From the NCBI GenBank assembly GCA_964036665.1, contig OZ038526.1:18600001-18664000 (forward strand): a DNA stretch of 64,000 nucleotides, given 5' to 3'. This document shows, one piece after another, positions 3,798 to 42,370 of this stretch. Position numbers and translations under genes: made by a program. The notes below the pieces were generated by a model, which saw only the letters and a list, made by a program, of their open reading frames with translations, did not search any database and was not told the DNA's origin. The stretch comes from Gordius sp. MW1. Taxonomy: Eukaryota; Nematomorpha; Gordioida; Gordea; Gordiidae. How positions within the stretch are numbered: position 1 is the stretch's first letter; the number at the start of each line of letters is the position of its first letter.

Positions 3798-4365
3798 CGC
3801 GAGAGTATTCATGGAGTTCTATACCCCATGCTTATAAATTAAAATATAAAACGCAATTTAAGTCTAATGAATTTGGTCTTTTCAATAGCTTAATATTTTA
3901 TCAAGAACTAGGTTAGGTAAAAATTTCATAGGTTTTGGCTTAATACTTTTTAAAAAAAAGCTTTTTGGCTCGTGGGGGTTGATTTCACCCCACGAATGGA
4001 AAAAATATATGTATTCTTTGTTTGTTTGATGACATCATTTACAATTTGTGTTTTAATACAATTTGTGTTTTTAATACATTTTGAACATTCTTTTAATATT
4101 AAATCACGTTTATTTTGATATATTTTAAGGTATATGACGTCAAGAGGCAAAATGAGGGGAAGCTCTACTCCCAAAATAAAAATGGGGGTCCAGAAAATTT
4201 TAATAAATTTTGTAATGTTGATTAAATGCATATCAAAATTTATACAGTCAATCTTAAGACCTTTATAAACACATGTTTAAAGTTTGAAAGGTTTTAGAAG
4301 AATACTTTGTAAGTTATAAGAAGTTAAAAAGTGGGGTAAAGTTATACCTCACGAATGCTCTCGCG
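3798..4365. mobile_element. putative MITE with imperfect inverted ends
   Basis: Sequence at 3798-3835 (GCGAGAGTATTCATGG, then TATACCCCATGCTT) is inverted at about 4328-4365 (AAGTGGGGTAAAG, then CACGAATGCTCTCGC). The interior is AT-rich and non-coding. A second, shorter hairpin of CGTGGGG and CCCCACG lies at 3972-3997. The superfamily is unknown. Confidence 0.45.
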
Positions 4366-4745
4366 TTCGCGATTTTCAGGAATACTCTCAAGGGTTAACA
4401 ATGTGTAATAAAATTTAAGCATATATTACAGTATATCTCATTTGGAGTTAACAAGGGGGAAGCAGAAGGTAGCTCTGCTTCCTTGAATAAAAAAGTTCTT
4501 ATAATTTTGACCAACATAAAAATAATAAGTTATCATTTTGCCTCATTTTAATTTTATATTTAAACTTCCTATTTCATGATTTACATCCGAGCCATGTGTA
4601 TGACAATTAAAGCTTATAATGGAACGCATAGAAATAAACTTTAATTTTTAGGTCTGCTATAATTAAGGTAAGTGTTTAATATGGTACTAGTAGTTATTGA
4701 TATAAATCTAAAACAATTTTCTGTTATATACATACTAAATTTAAT

Positions 4746-5153
4746 TTACCTCCAAAACAAAAGCAAGGGTAGTGGTAAGGCTAGGCTTAATAGAGTAATT
4801 AAAAGAGGAATATACACAGGCTCCTTATCTGGCAGATTAAGAAACTTAGCTCTTTGTCTGAGAACTTTGTAGCCATGACCAGTGTAATGGTCTACAACTT
4901 GATAAACTCTATTATTCCTTATGTATGGTTCCCACACTGCACTATCAGGGATCCTCCTTCTTTTCTTAATAACTGTGGCTTCCCCTGATGCAGGGTGGCT
5001 AACTTCTTTAACAGTGGTAGTTTCAGGATAAGCAGTTCTATGATAAGCATTCACTCCAGTAACATCCCTTACACCTTCATCTCTATTAATTCGCGTCGTT
5101 CTAGGACTGGAGTGAGGAGGGCTTCGATATGTAGTACTATCTTGTTCAGACAT
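4746..5153 (-). CDS. small single-pass membrane protein, paralog-like to 304-543
   Basis: A 135-residue frame runs from ATG at 5153 to TAA at 4746. The first 65 residues are polar and rich in S, T, P and R. A KKRRR basic cluster follows, then a region with R-x-Y, HGY-x-VL, FL-x-LP and KEP. It ends with one strongly hydrophobic segment (about residues 113-134, VYIPLLITLLSLALPLPLLLFW) next to the C-terminus. That layout suggests a tail-anchored membrane protein whose soluble part faces the cytoplasm or nucleoplasm. The last 55 residues align without gaps to the end of the protein at 304-543, with conserved R, Y, GY, L, F, P, EP and P. I do not recognise the family, and function is unknown. An opposite-strand frame at 4672-4872 is a shadow. 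Confidence 0.6.
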   Translation of the reverse strand: MSEQDSTTYRSPPHSSPRTTRINRDEGVRDVTGVNAYHRTAYPETTTVKEVSHPASGEATVIKKRRRIPDSAVWEPYIRNNRVYQVVDHYTGHGYKVLRQRAKFLNLPDKEPVYIPLLITLLSLALPLPLLLFWR

Positions 5154-6110
5154 TTGTCAGTTTTAATTACGAGAAAGAATGATAAATAAAAATTTGCAAG
5201 TAATGATGACTTTTATATACGAATTGGTGTCAACGAACAAATAGTTAAATAACAAATATGATCATGAAATGCATGAAGATACATATTAAATCAATAATAA
5301 ATAAGCATAGACTATTATTAGTCTATGTAAATAAGTTTATTGTAAAACTAAATTATATAATTTGAAGTTATGGTATAATTTATGCACATTTTATAAAGTT
5401 GATGTAATAATATAATTAATAAAGTAGATTATAATGACAAATTTTTAATGATATAGATGAAGTATGTTAACCAATTAAGTTACAGATTTATGTACGATTC
5501 TGTAGGTATTTAAGCCTACCTTATTCTAACTAAAGTAACTTTATTAATATCAAACCACAAGATATAATATAATAATCTATGGCACGCATTAGTTTATATA
5601 TCATACTATCGAGGTTAATATGCATAACTCGTACGTTAGTTGGGGGTTATTCAAATTATAATGATTGTGAATAGAATACGGCGGAGTATGAATAGTGTGT
5701 ATTCAAATCGAGTAAGAAGGGTGTTCCAAGGTAACCATAATTTCCCTACAATTCTAAAAAGTAATATAATAGATAATATAATAAAAATTCAGATTATATT
5801 ATATTTATTGTATTATATTTAATTATATTATATTATATAATCGCCTACGTACCAGATTCTCAAAAGACGAGTTTAAAGATAAAGTAGGTTGTAATGGCAA
5901 ATCTTACACAACTTCATTAATAATCCGTCAAAAATTTTGCTGAGAAAACAGTGAAATTAATTTTTTTGGTTAAATCTATCTTTAAACTTATATCACCGAA
6001 GGACCAACAAAAAATCAAAACTTATGTAAGTGGCTGAATCTAGTAGTTAAAAGACGTGTCGTCCAAATAAAGATCTTCTCTTTTTAACTTATATTAGAAC
6101 CATTTATTAA
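5154..6110. other. AT-rich intergenic stretch
   Basis: No coding, RNA or recognised repeat signal. It includes a (TATAT)-rich run near 5760-5840. It may hold the promoter of the membrane protein gene ending at 5153, but I see no distinct element. Confidence 0.35.
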
Positions 6111-6165
6111 TTCCTCAGTCACTCCAAACTTGTACTTTATCCTCTACCAACCTCACATCTAGAAT
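6111..6165 (+). pseudogene. truncated exon cassette (first copy of array)
   Basis: This is the 3' two-thirds of the duplicated mini-exon described at 6910-7257, starting at CCTCAGTCACTCC. It ends AGAAT followed by GTAAGTTT, and two bases before the donor are missing compared with the consensus. The 5' part and acceptor are gone. Confidence 0.5.
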
Positions 6166-6909
6166 GTAAGTTTAAATTTGAACATTTTTTATAGAAGTTA
6201 TAAATCCCCAAGAAATCAATTAACAACTGACGAGATTTATTTAACCAGGCACGAAATAATTTAAATTGTTTTAGAAGGTTATTATAAATTTATTTTGATT
6301 TTAGAACTATAATTCCTTTCTCGGTGTTTCAAGGTCTTCCCCCAAAAAGGGAGGACTTAACTTTTATTCAATTACGCGAAACACAATTAAGAAAGAAGAA
6401 TGAATGAATAATGAATGAATTATGTGTATGAATGCCAATGTCGAACGATCGGGTAAATATAATATTAATTATCGCTCAATCATTATTCTTGGCACATTTC
6501 CAAAGTAAAATTTTTCTAGCTAAAGTTGTTACTCAGCACATTTCCAGCAATTTAAACTAGAAATTGAGTAAGAGGGTAATAAAAAAAGGAATAGGGAAGG
6601 GGGAATAGAAACATGATTTAACATAAACAGGCGTATAGTAACATCATAAACAGGAGTAGAGTGTAAACAAACGTACAGTAACGTAATAAACAAGGGTAAT
6701 CTGTCGTGACTCATTAGTCATCCGATAAATAATAATAATCGTAGCATATAAGTATACGAAGAAATAAACAAACAAAATCAAATAAGCTAATAATCAATCG
6801 TGTGCTACGCGTAAAGTAATAAAAATAAGTAATAATAATTCAGGGAGGGGGAAACACCACAAGAAGTATTTTTATCTTTATATATTAATATTTTATATAA
6901 TATTTATAG

Positions 6910-7257
6910 ATGGCGCCTCTGCCTTAACTACTGCTTCTCAGTCACTCCAAACTTGTACTTTACCCTTTAACATCCTCACCTCTAGAATTTACAAGTTTGT
7001 ATTTAAACATTTATATAAAAGTAACATTTTTATCTTTATATATTTATATTATATTTGTAGATGGTGCCTCTGCCTCAACTACTGCTCCTCAGTCACTCCA
7101 AACTTGTACGTTGCCCTCTACCATCCTCACCTCTAGAATTTGTAAGTTTATATTTGAACATTTTTTATAATATTTGTAGATGGTGCCTCTGCCTCAACTA
7201 CTCCTCAGTCAGTCCAAACTTGTATTTTATCCTCTAAAATCCTCACCTCTGGAATTT
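6910..7257 (+). repeat. tandem mini-exon cassettes, proximal group (3 copies)
   Basis: Three cassettes lie at 6910-6990 (81 nt), 7061-7141 (81 nt) and 7180-7257 (78 nt). Each is preceded by an AT-rich tract ending TTRTAG (R = A or G). Copies two and three are followed by GTAAGTTT; the first has ACAAGTTT, a lost donor. All lengths are multiples of three. Read from the second base after AG, they encode a Ser/Thr-rich peptide starting GASASTT and containing APQS and QTC, and every copy is phase 1 in and phase 1 out. Such symmetric exons can be duplicated or skipped without changing frame. The third copy differs by an in-frame 3-bp loss. This fits duplicated exons of a mucin-like or extracellular spacer protein, but I found no anchoring gene, so a satellite carrying splice-like borders cannot be excluded. 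Confidence 0.55.
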
Positions 7258-7327
7258 GTAAGTTTTTATTTGAACATTTTTATAAAAGTAACATTTTTAT
7301 CTGTATATATTTACATTTTATATTATA

Positions 7328-9504
7328 CTATGAACCCGGCAAACGTTGTTTTGCCATTTACCCGGGTGTATTAGCAGAATATATATCATCTTATAGATAA
7401 ATTTCAATAGATTAAGAATATATCAAATATATTTGGTAAGTGTTTATTATGCAAAGATTTTTATAAAAATAGTTAAAGAGGGTCCAAGGCCCAGGCCCAC
7501 CCAAGAGAGAAAACATGGCCCCATGCCCCCCCCCCAATGGAAAAATCTTTGGCCCCCTGGACCTTCAAGCAATTTTTTTTAATTTTTTGTAATTAAGAAA
7601 CAATATTATAATTATAATATTTGTTTCCGAATAAAACTTTTAATTCTGAACTTAATAATGTCCGAAGAACTGAGATAACATTTATTGGCACTTTGTTAAA
7701 AGTATTTTAATTTTTCTCCTTATTTAACGCGCAAAAAATGATAAATGAGATTTTTTAATTTATTTAGCCACGCAGGAGAGGACACGACCGTCCTATTATA
7801 ATAATAATTGACGTGAAAAATAAACCCTAATTTTAAATATTTTTTAAAGGGCATGGGCAAAGGGGGCCTCAATTATAAAGGTTTTAAAAGAGTGTTGCAA
7901 AATAGTGGATCAGTTATAAATTTTCATGCTCGTTAATCAAATAAAAATATCGCGCCTGCCTTTATGATAAAATATAAACAAAAGGCGGATACGGATACGC
8001 ATATAATTTATTTAACGAAAAATAACAAATAATTGATATTTTTAAGATAAGGTGTGGCGTTGTGCAAAATTCTGCACCTTTGCCCCCTCCCCAAGCAAAT
8101 TTTTTAAGCCAAAATTACCTATAATCAAAAATTAATCAATAAATTTTGGATACATTTTTTTAAAGCTATCGCTAGAGACTACAAAATGGTATTTTTTGAA
8201 ATCATAGTCTGGCCCAAGCCCTCCCCCCCCCCCCAAGGGAAAAATCTTTGGCCCCCTGGCCCTTCAAGCAATTTTTTTTAATTTTTTGTATTCAAGAAAC
8301 AATATTATAATTATAATATTTGTTTCCGAATAAAACTTTTAATTCTGAACTTAATAATGTCCGAAGAACTGAGATAACATTTATTGGCACTTTGTTAAAA
8401 GTATTTTAATTTTTCTCCTTATTTAACGCGCAAAAAATGATAAAATGAGATTTTTTAATTTATTTAGCCACGCAGGAGAGGACACGACCGTCCTATTATA
8501 ATAATAATTGACGTGAAAAATAAACCTTAATTTTAAATATTTTTTAAAGGGCATGGGCAAAGGGGGCCTCAATTATAAAGGTTTTAAAAGAGTGTTGCAA
8601 AATAGTGGATCAGTTATAAATTTTCATGCTCGTTAATCAAATAAAAATATCGCGCCTGCCTTTATGATAAAATATAAACAAAAGGCGGATACGGATACGC
8701 ATATAATTTATTTAACGAAAAATAACAAATAATTGATATTTTTAAGATAAGGTCTGGCGTTGTGCAAAATTCTGCACCTTTGCCCCCTCCCCAAGCAAAT
8801 TTTTTAAGCCAAAATTACCTATAATCAAAAATTAATCAATAAATTTTGGATACATTTTTTTAAAGCTATCGCTAGAGACTACAAAATGGTATTTTTTGAA
8901 ATCATAGTCTGGCCCAAGCCCTCCCCTCCCCCCCCCCCAAGGGAAAAATCTTTGGCCCCCTGGCCCTTCAAGCAATTTTTTTAAATTTTTTGTATTCAAG
9001 AAACAATATTATAATTATAATATTTGTTTCCGAATAAAACTTTTAATTCTGAACTTAATAATGTCCGAAGAACTGAGATAACATTTATTGGCACTTTGTT
9101 AAAAGTATTTTAATTTATTTAGCCACGCTAGAGGGGACACGACCGTCCTATAATAAAAATAAGTGACGTGAAAAATAAGCAAAAAAATGACTTTGATACT
9201 CAATGTTTCAAATCGTAAAAACAGCACATGCCTAAATTTATCACACTACAAACGATAGATACGCCGTACATCATGAGGTTGCGTTTAATTGACATTTTAT
9301 TAAACGTCAAAACGTGTAAAACAAAATATCTCGAAAACTACTGGACCGATTTGGCTCGAACAAATCTTAAAACATGCTCCGGAGTGTCAGGACAAAACTG
9401 TAAAATTTTGAGCCAAATCGGTCTGGTAGTTTTCCAAAATTGGTGGCGGCATACACACAAACATACACCCTAACACACATACAGTTTCATTTTTATATAT
9501 AAGA
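7328..9504 (-). mobile_element. non-autonomous Helitron (C) inserted in exon array
   Basis: Reading the minus strand, the element starts TCTTATATATAAAAATG at 9504, continues with ACTACCAGACCGATTTGGCT, and ends near 7328 with the hairpin GGCAAA...TTTGCC followed by a decayed CTAG. The flanks are A at 7327 and T at 9505. Removing the element restores the array intron ending ATATTTGTAG, so insertion was at A^T, as in Helitrons. The internal sequence is shared with the Helitron at 44019-45488. There is no Rep/helicase coding, so movement must have depended on an autonomous partner. Confidence 0.8.
7530..9180. repeat. ~703-bp tandem repeat inside Helitron, 2.3 copies
   Basis: The block beginning AAAATCTTTGGCCCCCTGG occurs at about 7541, 8241 and 8944, a period near 703 bp. 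The first two copies are almost identical; the third is truncated at about 9180. Each junction is a long C run (7527-7535, 8221-8234, 8925-8938). A two-copy version of the same duplication is in the Helitron at 44019-45488. Confidence 0.8.
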
Positions 9505-9511
9505 TTTGTAG

Positions 9512-9807
9512 ATGGTGCCTCTGCCTCAACTACTGCTACTCAGTCACTCCAAACTTGTATGTTGCCCTCTACACCTCACCTCTAGAAGTTGTTAGTTTAT
9601 ATTTGAACATTTTATATAATATTTACAGATGGAGCCTTTGCCTCAACTACTGCTCCTCAGTCAGTCCAAACATGTATTTTACCCTCTACAATCCTCACCT
9701 CTAGAATTTGTAAGTTTGTAATTGAACCTTTTTATAAAAGTAACATTTTTATCTTTATATATTTACATTTTATATTATATTTGTAGATGGTGCCTCGGCC
9801 TCAACTA
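9512..9807 (+). repeat. tandem mini-exon cassettes, distal group
   Basis: Cassettes lie at 9512-9590 (79 nt, frame broken by a 2-bp loss, donor GTTAGT), 9629-9709 (81 nt, intact, acceptor TTTACAG, donor GTAAGT) and 9787-9807 (truncated after TCAACTA). They continue the array at 6910-7257 across the inserted Helitron. The intact copy again opens phase 1 with GAFASTTAPQS. Having both intact and broken copies suggests partial decay. Confidence 0.5.
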
Positions 9808-10170
9808 GTTAATTAGCAATGAATGAATCATGGGTTGAGATAAAATGACACTAATTAATAAAATAATTATTCAACTTTATATAAATTTTATTTATATGTT
9901 ATATGGCAAATTATGAGCTTGAAGGTACATATAAATGGATACATTGGCAAGATATTCTAAATAGTTAATCTCCCTATTAAGGTGAGAGGGAATGAATTCC
10001 ATAGTATCTAAATAAAATAACATTTGATAAATTAAAATTGATTTCTGCATCCTGGATTGTGCCTTATTTTAAATATATTACTTTATTTATAGTTAATAGT
10101 ATTTAATGGCTTTTAATCATTCACAGTTTTAGCCAAAGCTTCAATGCAAATATTTTAGATATAAATTTAC

Positions 10171-10245
10171 TTTGAGAGGTGAAGATGGTAGAGGGCAATG
10201 TAAAAGTTAGTGACTGAGGAGCATTAGTTGAGGCAGGGGCACCAT
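10171..10245 (-). repeat. mini-exon cassette, opposite strand
   Basis: This 75-nt copy of the cassette has its acceptor TTATAG just beyond 10245 and donor GTAAAT below 10171. It is phase 1 in and out, encoding GAPASTNAPQS and so on. It differs from the plus-strand copies by in-frame losses only, which argues for selection on frame. Confidence 0.5.
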
Positions 10246-10320
10246 CTATAATTATTATAAAAATGTAAATATATAAAATAAAATGTTACTTTTATAAAAA
10301 ATGTTTAAGTACAAACTTAC

Positions 10321-10398
10321 AAATTCTAGAGCTGAGGATGGTAGAGGGCAACGTACAAGTTAGTGACTGAGGAGCAGTAGTTGAGGCAGAGGCACCAT
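10321..10398 (-). repeat. mini-exon cassette, opposite strand
   Basis: A 78-nt copy with acceptor TTTATAG, donor GTAAGTTT, symmetric phase 1, encoding GASASTTAPQS and so on. It pairs with the copy at 10171-10245. The 75-nt spacer between them is AT-rich, like the other introns of the array. Confidence 0.5.
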
Positions 10399-11167
10399 CT
10401 ATAAATATTATATAAAAGTAAATATATAGATATAAATGTTACTTTTATGCGTAATTGTAAACATGTTATTCCTAAATGTGCCTCTTCCCCCAATAAACAT
10501 CATTTTTATACACAGGTTTATTTTTTATAAACTAGAGTTTAAGTTTGAAATATCTTACTTGATAAATTTAAAATAACCGGTAAAGCACAGCGCGTCCTGA
10601 TTGGTCGAGAATAAATAATCAAAATATTTATGTTTTCATGATATTTTGTTATTTGACCATTTGTTGTTTGACTTGATACCAAGTGAATGGCCCTAATGGA
10701 ATTTATATAGAAATATAGATAGGATGCTGAGAAGGAGTGACGACCATGACAAACCTCTTTAACAACATATTTTTAGAAGAGCAAATCCCTAATCATGGAG
10801 GGCAAGTACGATTATACCCATATTCAGGATCGTGGCTATTAAATAGATAACAGTTTAACTTGCCATTCTTTGAAACTTGTGGAAAGTATCTTAATAAAAA
10901 GGCTGAAAAACGAGGTGATTATTGGCTAATCAAGATTTGTGGTCGGCTAATCCAACCGGAATCTTCACACTAAGACAAAGGATAGATAAATATAGTTAAA
11001 ATAGAAGAAACCTACATTTGGTCTTTATCGACCTTGAAAAAGTGCGATTTAAAATGGCGATGCTTGAGAAAACAAAACATCCCTGATGCATATGTACGAC
11101 AAAAATTATATATGAAGCCACAAATTCGTGTGTTAACAGTTAAGTACCATCATATTTACGAAACAAG
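10399..11167. other. intergenic, nothing recognised
   Basis: AT-rich, no repeat partner noticed. A frame starting at 11034 runs into the adjacent MITE and is chance. Confidence 0.35.
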
Positions 11168-13784: not shown

Positions 13785-14545
13785 TATTTTTTACCCTCTT
13801 TCTCACCTGGGGAGGAACGGCGGGCAGGTGGGGTGTTTGCCCCCCTCCCCTTTATTTTTTACCCTCTTTCTGATGCGGGGAAGAGAAGGGGGGGGGCAGG
13901 GGGGTGTTTTGCCCCCCCCCTAATTTTTTACCCTCTTTCTCACTCGAAGGGGGGGGGGAGCATGGGGGGTGTTTTGCTCCCCCCCCCTTATTTTTTACCC
14001 TCTTTCTCACCTGGGGAGGAACAGCGGGCAGGTGGGGTGTTTGCCCCCCCCCCTTATTTTTTACCCTCTTTCTGATGCGGGGAAGAAAGGGGGAGGGGCG
14101 GGGGGGGGGGGGTGTTTTGCCCCCCCCCCCAATTTTTTACCCTCTTTCTCACTCGGGGAGGGGGCGGGGCATGGGGGGTGTTTTGCCCCCCCCCCTTTAT
14201 TTTTTACCCTCTTTCTGATGCGGGAAAGAGGGGGGGGACAGGGGGGTGTTTTGCCCCCACCCCCCTATTTTTTACCCTCTTTCTCACCCGGGGAGGAGGG
14301 GGGGTGTGGGTGTTTACCCCCCCCCCCCCTCCCCCCTTTTACCCTCTTTCTCACCTGGGGAGGAACAGCGGGCAGGTGATGTGTTTGCCCCCCCCCCCTA
14401 TTTTTTACCCTCTTTCTCACCTGGGGAGGGGGGGGGGGTGTTTTGCCCCTCCCCTTCTATTTTTTTACCCTCTTTCTGATGTCGGGAAGAGGGGGGGTGA
14501 TTCGCCCCTCTTCTTATTTTTTACCCTCTTTCTCACCCGGGGGGG
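13785..14545. repeat. G/C-run minisatellite, ~12 copies of ~65 bp
   Basis: ACCCTCTTTCT recurs about every 62-75 bp from 13791 to 14522. Each unit is a run of up to 13 C, then TATTTTTTACCCTCTTTCT, then CACYYGGGGAGG or GATGCGGGAAGAG, then a G run. Long overlapping frames through it (Pro/Gly/Phe rich) exist only because the unit lacks stops. Both strands can form G-quadruplexes. Confidence 0.85.
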
Positions 14546-14582
14546 GGGGCCGGAAAGCCTTTTTTAACACTTTCAAAATATT

Positions 14583-33569: not shown

Positions 33570-35340
33570 AAAATTTGGCCAATGATCATTTTTTCTCCAT
33601 TGGTCAGTACCAACAGATACTCTATAAGTCAATGATAGCCAAAAAACGGAAAAAAATTTTGATGCTTACCTTGGCCAATGGTCATTTTTTCCCATTGGTC
33701 AGCAGCCAGCACACGGTAAAAGTGGATATAAATTCATAAGAGTAAAAAAAACGAAAAAAAAATTTTTGAATCACATTTTGGCCAATGGTCATTTTTTTCC
33801 ATTGGTCAGCAGCCAGGACACGGTAAAAGTGGATATAAATTCATAATAGTCAAAAAAAAACGAAAAAAAAATTTTCGAATCACATTTTGGCCAATGGTCA
33901 TTTTATTCCATTGGTCAGCAGCCAGCGGACGGCCAAAAAGTCATAATAGCAATGGTAGGAACAGGAACCATAATAGTAAAAAAAAACGAAAAAAATAATT
34001 TCGATTCACATTTTGGCCAATGGTCATTTTTTCCATCGGTCAGGAGCCAGCGGACGGCCAAAAAGTCATAATAGCAATGGTAGTAACAGGAACAATCATA
34101 ATAGTCAAAAAAACGAAAAAATAACCTCGGATTCACATTTTGGCCATTGGTCATTTTTTTCATTGGTCAGCAGCCAGCGGACGGCCAAAAAGTCTTATTA
34201 TCACTGATAGTAACAAGAACAATCATAAGAGGCAAAAAAAACTCCGGGATTCTAACCCAAAAACTAGTTAAATTGCATAGCAATTAAAAGTAAACGACTT
34301 TTATTCATGTTTATTATATAATAAAATGAAACAATAATAGAACAAGCGGACGGCCAAAAAGTTATAATAGCAATGGTAGGAACAGGAACAATCATAATAG
34401 TCAAAAAAACGAAAAAAATAATTTCGATTCACATTTTGGCCAATGGTCATTTTTTCCATCGGTCAGGAGCCAGCGGACGGCCAAAAAGTCATAATAGCAA
34501 TGGTAGTAACAGGAACAATCATAATAGTCAAAAAAACGAAAAAATAACCTCGGATTCACATTTATTGGTCATTTTTTTCATTGGTCAGCAGCCAGCGGAC
34601 GGCCAAAAAGTCTTATTATCACTGATAGTAACAAGAACAATCATAAGAGGCAAAAAAAACTCCGGGATTCTAACCCAAAAACTAGTTAAATTGCATAGCA
34701 ATTAAAAGTAAACGACTTTTATTCATGTTTATTATATAATAAAATGAAACAATAATAGAACAAGCGGACGGCCAAAAAGTCATAATAGCAATGGTAGGAA
34801 CAGGAACAATCATAATAGTCAAAAAAACGAAAAAAATAATTTCGATTCACATTTTGGCCAATGGTCATTTTTTCCATCGGTCAGGAGCCAGCGGACGGCC
34901 AAAAAGTCATAATAGCAATGGTAGTAACAGGAACAATCATAATAGTCAAAAAAACGAAAAAATAACCTCGGATTCACATTTTGGCCATTGGTCATTTTTT
35001 TCATTGGTCAGCAGCCAGCGGACGGCCAAAAAGTCTTATTATCACTGATAGTAACAAGAACAATCATAAGAGGCAAAAAAAACTCCGGGATTCTAACCCC
35101 AAAACTAGTTAAATTGCATAGCAATTAAAAGTAAACGACTTTTATTCATGTTTATTATATAATAAAATGAAACAATAATAGAACAAGCGGACGGCCAAAA
35201 AGTCATAATAGCAATGGTAGGAACAGGAACAATCATAATAGTCAAAAAAACGAAAAAAATAATTTTGATTCACATTTTGGTCAATGGTCATTTTTTCCAT
35301 CGGTCAGGAGCCAGCGGACGAGCAAAAAAGTCATAATAGC
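33570..35340. repeat. satellite-like array, ~110-125-bp units with ~420-bp higher-order repeat
   Basis: TTGGCCAATGGTCATTTTTT occurs near 33576, 33671, 33778, 33887, 34013, 34436, 34855 and 35276 (last two slightly altered). From 34013 the array repeats in blocks of 419-422 bp that include a deleted unit and ACTAGTTAAATTGCATAGCA. Each unit can fold through CCAATG and CATTGG. Frames inside repeat the peptide KSHNSNGSNRNNHNSQ and are not genes. Confidence 0.85.
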
Positions 35341-41614: not shown

Positions 41615-42370
41615 TCATTGATAATAAGACTTTTGGCCGTCCGCTGGCTGCTGACCAATGAAAAAAATGACCATTGGCCAAAATGTGAATCCGAGTTTAT
41701 TTTTTCGTTTTTTTTGACTATTATGATTGTTCCTGTTACTACCATTGCTATTATGACTTTTTGGCCGTCCGCTGGCTCCTGACCGATGGAAAAAATGACC
41801 ATTGGCCAAAATGTGAATCGAAATTATTTTTTTCGTTTTTTTTTGACTATTATGATTGTTCCTGTTCCTACCATTGCTATTATGACTTTTTGGCCGTCCG
41901 CTGGCTGCTGACCAATGGAATAAAATGACCATTGGCCAAAATGTGATTCGAAAATTTTTTTTTCGTTTTTTTTGACTATTATGAATTTATATCCACTTTT
42001 ACCGTGTCCTGGCCGCTGACCAATGGAAAAAAATGACCATTGGCCAAATTTTTGATTTTTTTAATTAAAAATTGTTCAAATTCAACAAAAAATTTCTCCC
42101 AACAATTCTGCAAATTCTTAACATTGTGATGTTTTATAATATAATGTTTGTTAGACCCATAATCACTAAAGGCCATAAAAACTAATATAATACGCAACTA
42201 GATGCAAACACTAAATTTAACCCTAACCCTTGCCTATATTACATTTTGCCTATAAATGGAAAATTTGTATAAATAATTAATTAATCATCAGGCATTTAAT
42301 ACCCCCCCCCCCCCTATAGGCATTCTCGCCCCTTCCCACCTTTCTCGCCCATAAATTGCATAGCAAATAT

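Follow-up and report, generated by a model that had tools for sequence, protein, structure and literature searches.

Phantom Mutator-like elements (MULEs) of animals were reportedly described by Marquez and Pritham in 2010. Minisatellites or subterminal repeats in such elements are already known (PMC6446971, PMC5225508, PMC3169594; these and the other papers below are cited from part of their text). In aphid Phantom members a minisatellite follows the transposase frame (Table 1 of PMC6446971, whose main text contains neither the word "exon" nor the word "intron"), and the transposases of Muta1 and Muta5 were predicted from 2-3 exons (PMC5225508). The words intron, tandem, FLYWCH and minisatellite do not occur in the main text of a 2026 survey of arthropod MULEs (PMC13359780). 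Symmetric coding-exon units inside a transposase gene were not found in the literature searched, which did not include Repbase or most subscription papers. Here we analyse a 64,000-nucleotide stretch of the genome of Gordius sp. MW1 (C8:18600001-18664000 of the genome assembly, hereafter the window), in which short cassettes with splice-like borders recur on both strands. It is close to certain that these cassettes are part of a MULE. We consider it quite probable, from the anatomy and comparison of its copies, that the transposase gene of this MULE carries a variable row of symmetric mini-exons, entered and left in phase 1 (phase 1-1), and that a non-coding mirror array lies at the other end of the element.

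The element is a MULE transposon present at dispersed sites, bounded by inverted ends that can bear inward-pointing cassette arrays and flanked by target duplications of 9 bp. The ends read GAATTGGTGTCAA... and ...TTGATACC, in the window copy as in four other copies, and searches of the genome gave 41 hits for the left end and 35 for the right, totals that include partial hits and the window copy itself. In what follows, labels such as L067 denote the genome stretches compared, 84 sequences in all. Homology of the window to a young, 2868-bp copy (L061:5492-8359, whose array spacing recurs at no fewer than seven other places) begins at 5221 and stops at 10682 (blastn). The terminal inverted repeats are imperfect (36-41 bp, 82-88%), and the left end of the young copy matches window positions 10672-10634 in inverted orientation over 41 bp at 87.8%. 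Four copies were read at both ends, and three of them (L062, L063 and L064, not L061) have identical 9-bp flanks; the flanks of the window copy, when compared, showed no target duplication. L061 and L062 share 99.4% identity across 2865 bases, as do L061 and L063 across 2879 bases, and the young copies lie on three chromosomes. At such identity, these copies of about 2.87 kb, which bear only the array on the antisense side, have moved recently. Arrays pointing inward from both ends were seen in the window, L065/L066 and L067, and on one side only in copies of the L061 type. The largest copies, of 12 kb on C8 (L065/L066) and 9.5 kb on C2 (L068), both owe part of their size to open frames of Gypsy type (identified by eye), and L068 also holds a piggyBac-type transposase (PF13843, 8.3e-11). 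On C2, end matches of equal identity are paired in inverted orientation about 153 kb apart (C2:5526181-5535728 and C2:5688284-5697831), which suggests one 9.5-kb element copy inside an inverted duplication.

A first-pass annotation made from the letters of the window had proposed either a hypervariable repeat-exon gene or a satellite that mimics exons. A host gene of the former kind at this locus would explain the exon-like features of the cassettes, but it would not be expected as dispersed copies with the common ends (41 and 35 matches) and 9-bp duplications (three of four copies) just described. Moreover, a transposase domain lies within one copy, and in the window arrays on both strands flank a transposase remnant. 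The common ends, target duplications and transposase remnant rule the host gene out, and we leave it hardly any probability.

Cassette abundance is far above chance. The first-pass annotation had called for a search for further copies, and in the 212-Mb genome the opening 28 bases of the cassette gave 94+60 matches at two mismatches or fewer, against none for the reversed pattern used as control. The at least 208 genome matches to a 141-base cassette query and the tandem spacing in the window, of about 116-158 bp, would both suit a free satellite with chance splice-like motifs, unrelated to any element. We examined 201 cassettes in 56 of the 84 sequences and assigned each to a side of the element where an element end lay within 6 kb: 28 fell on the gene-sense side and 147 on the mirrored one, which left 26 unassigned. 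Thus 175 of 201 adjoin element ends, and 24 of the 26 exceptions belong to one array at C2:6.38 Mb; on this count we rejected the free satellite and regard it as improbable. The exceptional array (C2:6379365-6382144, L002 and L042), which speaks for such a satellite, consists of two mutually facing arrays with 24 cassettes and no listed element end within 6 kb, and it may be the beginning of a free satellite.

The class of the element is indicated by its domains. PF10551, the MULE domain, was detected in L067, a focal copy of the same family as that of the window, between its two inward-pointing arrays at E=0.0011, which is under the Pfam cutoff. In relatives it stands above the cutoff (L072, 7.2e-8; L071, 4.8e-7), and the L067 transposase stretch aligns with L071 at E=3e-45. 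FLYWCH (PF04500), a zinc finger characteristic of Phantom MULEs, is above cutoff in exon 1 of L079 (6.5e-6) and in L072 (6.1e-6), and under it in L071 (1.5e-4) and in a piece of the focal copy L065 (0.0004) that aligns to L072 at 5e-41. The focal exon 1 aligns with the FLYWCH exon 1 of L079 (5e-18, 37% identity). A PHD finger, the mark of Rehavkus, had no match in the scanned exons, and the focal transposase is incomplete. We would therefore place the element, by its parts rather than by a tree, with the Phantom group of MULEs; its mirrored repeat arrays resemble those of Foldback elements. A Ginger-type identity, considered on account of an integrase-zinc-binding fragment (PF17921, 1.1e-5) in the 2.87-kb copies, was not upheld. 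Because that stretch has no match longer than 100 bp in L067 and its peptide has 124 genome matches of all degrees, it looks like another carried-along repeat.

The gene runs on the minus strand from the right end of the element, with a zinc-finger exon 1, n cassettes, a conserved 63-nt exon D, and then the second FLYWCH and the transposase. In L067, exon 1 (567-744, MSNVTQTEKPVYKNG...DHSEIP) ends in a phase-1 donor, the cassettes after it are split by an open frame of non-long-terminal-repeat type (judged by eye), and exon D (4318-4380, IIQDAEIMLDAILGIQSTHQ) is phase 1-1. The second FLYWCH exon starts with a phase-1 acceptor and is followed by transposase fragments, a stop, the mirrored array and the other end. 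Since exon 1 ends in phase 1, intact cassettes are symmetric and the later exons start in phase 1, any number of cassettes would remain in frame. We suggest, from this anatomy and from comparison, that the array on one side consists of mini-exons in phase 1-1, usually 78 or 81 nt long, that form part of the transposase gene and would encode a Ser/Thr-rich linker between the N-terminal FLYWCH exon and the exons of the second FLYWCH and the MULE transposase. Such an array could lengthen or shorten by unequal exchange or conversion with the frame unbroken, and the mini-exon that was amplified appears to be a different one in each element family. At the opposite end, the array would be an inverted copy past the stop codon, without a coding role and possibly acting in cis as an element end. 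Introns in the window are 44 and 75 nt long and those in the arrays of relatives 35-51 nt; the L071 transposase has a probable 39-nt intron, itself open. Beside L067 lies an RTEL1-like host gene, presumably RTEL1 to judge from its sequence, with an apparent 41-nt GC-AG intron (L067:6816-6856).

Similar arrays stand ahead of the second FLYWCH exon in related families: L070, L071, L072/L079 and the fragment L073. In L072/L079 a pair of 72-nt exons and a single 66-nt exon are followed by an array, whose exons measure 63-66 nt and whose introns measure 35 nt, and by exon D. The exons of L070 measure 66, 63, 66, 66, 66 and 72 nt before D, those of L071 72, 75, 69 and 69 nt followed by a damaged unit and another of 72 nt, and the plus strand of L073 shows an unclear exon, exons of 60 and 69 nt and a frame-shifted exon D. 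The amplified exon is family-specific, with a motif LPST..TS common to the focal family, L070 and L072. Genome counts were 60+48 for the L072-type array pattern and 21+20 for the L071-type, with controls at 0; a copy of the former type lies at C3:19064000-19070137 and one of the latter at C4:12514236-12520400. Adjoining the L072-type element is a second, divergently transcribed FLYWCH-like gene (L079:1-1530, minus strand; C3:19064000-19065529), with a weak FLYWCH match under the cutoff (PF04500, 0.012) and about eight phase 1-1 exons, old and diverged in sequence, that measure 60-93 nt; the border of E3 with E4 is tentative, as is a GC donor separating E1 from E2.

Whether the cassettes code is best judged across families. 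All 24 representative mini-exons are divisible by three and phase 1-1. They contain no stop in 558 phase-1 codons, against 30/582 and 45/558 in the other frames and a mean of 29.5 (minimum 13) after shuffling, a count that is not blind, because part of the 24 were chosen by a filter that passed only exons with an open frame whose length was a multiple of three, and damaged units were omitted. The omissions comprise near-identical repeats of one array, broken copies of the focal family, the damaged L071 unit, two exons of L073 (its first, which is unclear, and the frame-shifted D) and exon E8 of the L079 minus-strand gene. When introns were scanned for with no filter on length, the resulting exons were divisible by three in 8/8 cases for L079/L072, 5/5 for L070 and 4/4 for L071, where one of the four, at 153 nt, covers the damaged unit. 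The same scan of the L079 minus-strand gene returned ten intervals, seven of them divisible by three and open (one being two exons merged and one an exon piece); the other three, of 0, 2 and 134 nt, lie close to the array end and are senseless calls. When the two copies in L079 of exon A, the first mini-exon, were compared with exon A of L071, the proportion of synonymous differences (pS) exceeded that of nonsynonymous ones (pN) at 0.95 to 0.41 and 0.92 to 0.44, an excess confined to the phase-1 reading (Fisher p 1.7e-4 and 3.7e-4). For the tail that the amplified exons have in common, a region selected for protein similarity, pS was 0.67-0.78 and pN 0.04-0.37 between the focal family and L070/L072.

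These data must be set against the most serious competing explanation, namely that the cassettes are non-coding subterminal repeats, either transposase-binding or foldback as in Muta1 and Tm1, and that the array is either skipped or lies ahead of a gene whose start is the ATG of the second FLYWCH exon. This would account for the arrays in inverted orientation at both ends and for the recently moved copies having kept only the antisense-side array, and it has precedents in the subterminal tandem repeats of mosquito FLYWCH MULEs (PMC5225508) and the minisatellite of aphid Phantom elements (PMC6446971). It is also consistent with the lack of visible purifying selection within the focal family. 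However, it leaves the constancy of phase 1 through exon 1, the cassettes, exon D and the second FLYWCH exon unexplained, together with the absence of phase-1 stops and the excess of synonymous change in exon A. Furthermore, the second FLYWCH exon of L071 has ATA in place of the ATG seen in the other copies read, so translation there would need another start. We therefore regard non-coding repeats as unlikely, while granting them more weight than the host gene or the free satellite, and think it likely, on comparative sequence grounds, that the cassettes are coding transposase exons in working relatives.

The two sides of the element also differ. On the sense side, 20 of 28 cassettes combine a bordering AG and GT with a length divisible by three; among distinct cassettes of the antisense side the figure is 21 of 56 (Fisher p = 0.005, only indicative, as are all side p-values, because the copies are related by descent). 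This comparison omits those antisense-side cassettes, 27 of 147, that lack two clear ends. In the window, the two minus-strand copies belong to the sense class and the seven plus-strand copies to the antisense class. Since the antisense side keeps exon features less well, the plus-strand copies are nearer to an exon-mimicking satellite, and their array, past the stop codon, is probably non-coding.

Several observations weigh against a coding array, beginning with the filtered choice of the 24 representatives. Divisibility by three alone does not separate the two sides (p = 0.14), and on the sense side five of the 28 cassettes have a broken frame and one lacks a donor. No complete intact gene was found in a focal copy, the reading frame of the second FLYWCH exon of L067 meets a stop, and a Pfam scan of the focal exon 1 gave nothing at E<=1. 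The check on selection among copies for which the first-pass annotation had asked did not come out in favour of coding: within the focal family pN/pS was 1.51 (0.80-3.59) on the sense side, which is no sign of purifying selection, 0.97 on the antisense side and 1.09 among unassigned copies. Exon D of L067 and L072 shows no clear constraint (pS 0.36, pN 0.28), the two A exons of L079 differ from each other at pS 0.06 and pN 0.11, and the diverged exons of the L079 minus-strand gene, with a ratio of 0.96, carry no selection signal. The broken second FLYWCH exon of L067 and the damaged units missing from the main count slightly reduce our confidence in a transposase gene with a mini-exon array.

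What the window holds is a dead derivative of such an element, deleted internally and without the original start codon and the catalytic part. Exon 1 has lost that codon and its first half, and the last exon has been fused through an internal deletion, common to L082 and L083, so that it ends in ..YLQAHNLPYNI and a stop. As the first-pass annotation had counted, nine cassettes are present, seven on the plus strand and two on the minus strand, the latter starting at 10398 (78 nt) and 10245 (75 nt). Seven have both borders, six of these being 75, 78 or 81 nt long and the seventh, at 79 nt, having a broken frame; phase 1 is open in all but that one. The GT donor ascribed to the units holds for six of the seven and fails in the 81-nt copy at 6910, which has ACAAGT at the donor site. 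As to interpretation, each of the two alternatives holds in part. The repeat-exon gene is borne out in the exon-like, phase 1-1 behaviour of the cassettes and not in its nature, which is that of a transposase gene of a mobile element rather than a host gene. The exon-mimicking satellite comes nearer to the seven mirrored cassettes past the stop codon and does not describe the two on the gene-sense side.

Features of the transposon copy in window coordinates; exon assignments are predictions
Feature	Position	Strand	Basis
Whole degraded Mutator-like (Phantom/FLYWCH type) transposon copy, gene sense minus	5221..10680	.	blastn and shared ends
Left terminal inverted repeat, far from gene start	5226..5268	+	comparison with young copy
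Antisense-side cassette, without acceptor end	6112..6165	+	sequence reading
Antisense-side cassette, 81 nt, donor lost	6910..6990	+	border reading
Antisense-side cassette, 81 nt	7061..7141	+	border reading
Antisense-side cassette, 78 nt	7180..7257	+	border reading
Probable insertion in antisense array, ~700-bp tandem repeats	7328..9484	.	no match to young copy
Antisense-side cassette, 79 nt, frame broken	9512..9590	+	border reading
Antisense-side cassette, 81 nt	9629..9709	+	border reading
Antisense-side cassette, truncated, closest to gene 3' end	9787..9807	+	comparison with young copy
Last exon: second FLYWCH exon start (phase-1 acceptor) fused to transposase C-terminus	9892..10007	-	comparison
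Exon D remnant (..QDAEI..), remainder deleted	10041..10062	-	comparison with L067
Sense-side mini-exon 2, 75 nt, phase 1-1, GAPASTNAPQSLTFTLPSTIFTSQ	10171..10245	-	border reading
Sense-side mini-exon 1, 78 nt, phase 1-1, GASASTTAPQSLTCTLPSTILSSRI	10321..10398	-	border reading
Exon 1 remnant (first FLYWCH finger tail), 61 nt, phase-1 donor AAAA|GTAACA	10443..10503	-	comparison with L067
Right terminal inverted repeat, gene-start side	10634..10680	-	comparison with young copy

Other repeats and frames were seen nearby. The probable insertion in the antisense array is made of about 2.3 units of the tandem repeat, the first two copies of which are 98-100% identical. An open frame on the minus strand at 4746-5156 of the window begins MSEQDSTTYRSPPHSS, and because its ATG is 67 bp from the left end of the element, the element may adjoin the upstream side of a host gene. 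Minisatellites with long G and C runs occur at 13924-14567 of the window and on the minus strand of L080. Another minisatellite is present in two copies in the window (34325-34705 and 41615-41986) and is open in one frame (GHFFHRSGASGRPKSHNSN).

Minisatellites in genes usually break the frame unless their unit is a multiple of three. A unit that spans one complete symmetric exon together with its introns escapes this restriction, since its length in DNA may then vary freely while the protein stays in frame. The comparisons support, at the level of sequence, a frame-safe coding minisatellite of this kind, that is, a variable-length transposase linker of symmetric mini-exons that would be renewed in each family by amplification. 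By analogy, such arrays may be a source of host multi-microexon genes, for example the aphid bicycle genes, which are of the same phase. That both propositions hold together, with the Phantom MULEs of this genome bearing a coding minisatellite and also serving as a nursery of same-phase mini-exons for the host, we consider unlikely. If a transposon gene does use such exon units repeatedly, its families in one genome would show the origin and turnover of same-phase mini-exon arrays, and would offer a concrete source to test for host genes made of many same-phase small exons. Bicycle genes have a signal peptide and the bicycle protein motif, and we do not class the element arrays among them. The likeness lies in their numerous short internal exons, almost all of which begin at codon position 2, the phase of the cassettes; the difference is that they are putative gall-effector genes of the host (PMC9168663).

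Among mobile elements, Tm1, a Mutator/Foldback element of root-knot nematodes, is similar in its 9-bp target duplications, its Phantom-type transposase and its composite inverted ends, in which the number of tandem repeats varies, and also in having short asymmetric motifs outside the inverted part, represented in our element by GAATT at one end. In contrast, the end repeats of Tm1 are of about 14 bp, whereas the unit here exceeds 100 bp and includes an exon-like stretch (PMC3169594). Muta1 and Muta5 of Aedes aegypti are likewise FLYWCH MULEs with subterminal tandem repeats, but these repeats measure 9-15 bp, and exon arrays are not described in the cited part of that paper (PMC5225508). The Phantom MULEs share with our element a MULE transposase with FLYWCH, target duplications of 8-10 bp and inverted ends; unlike Phantom as described there, the element analysed here has its two fingers parted by a mini-exon array (PMC6446971).

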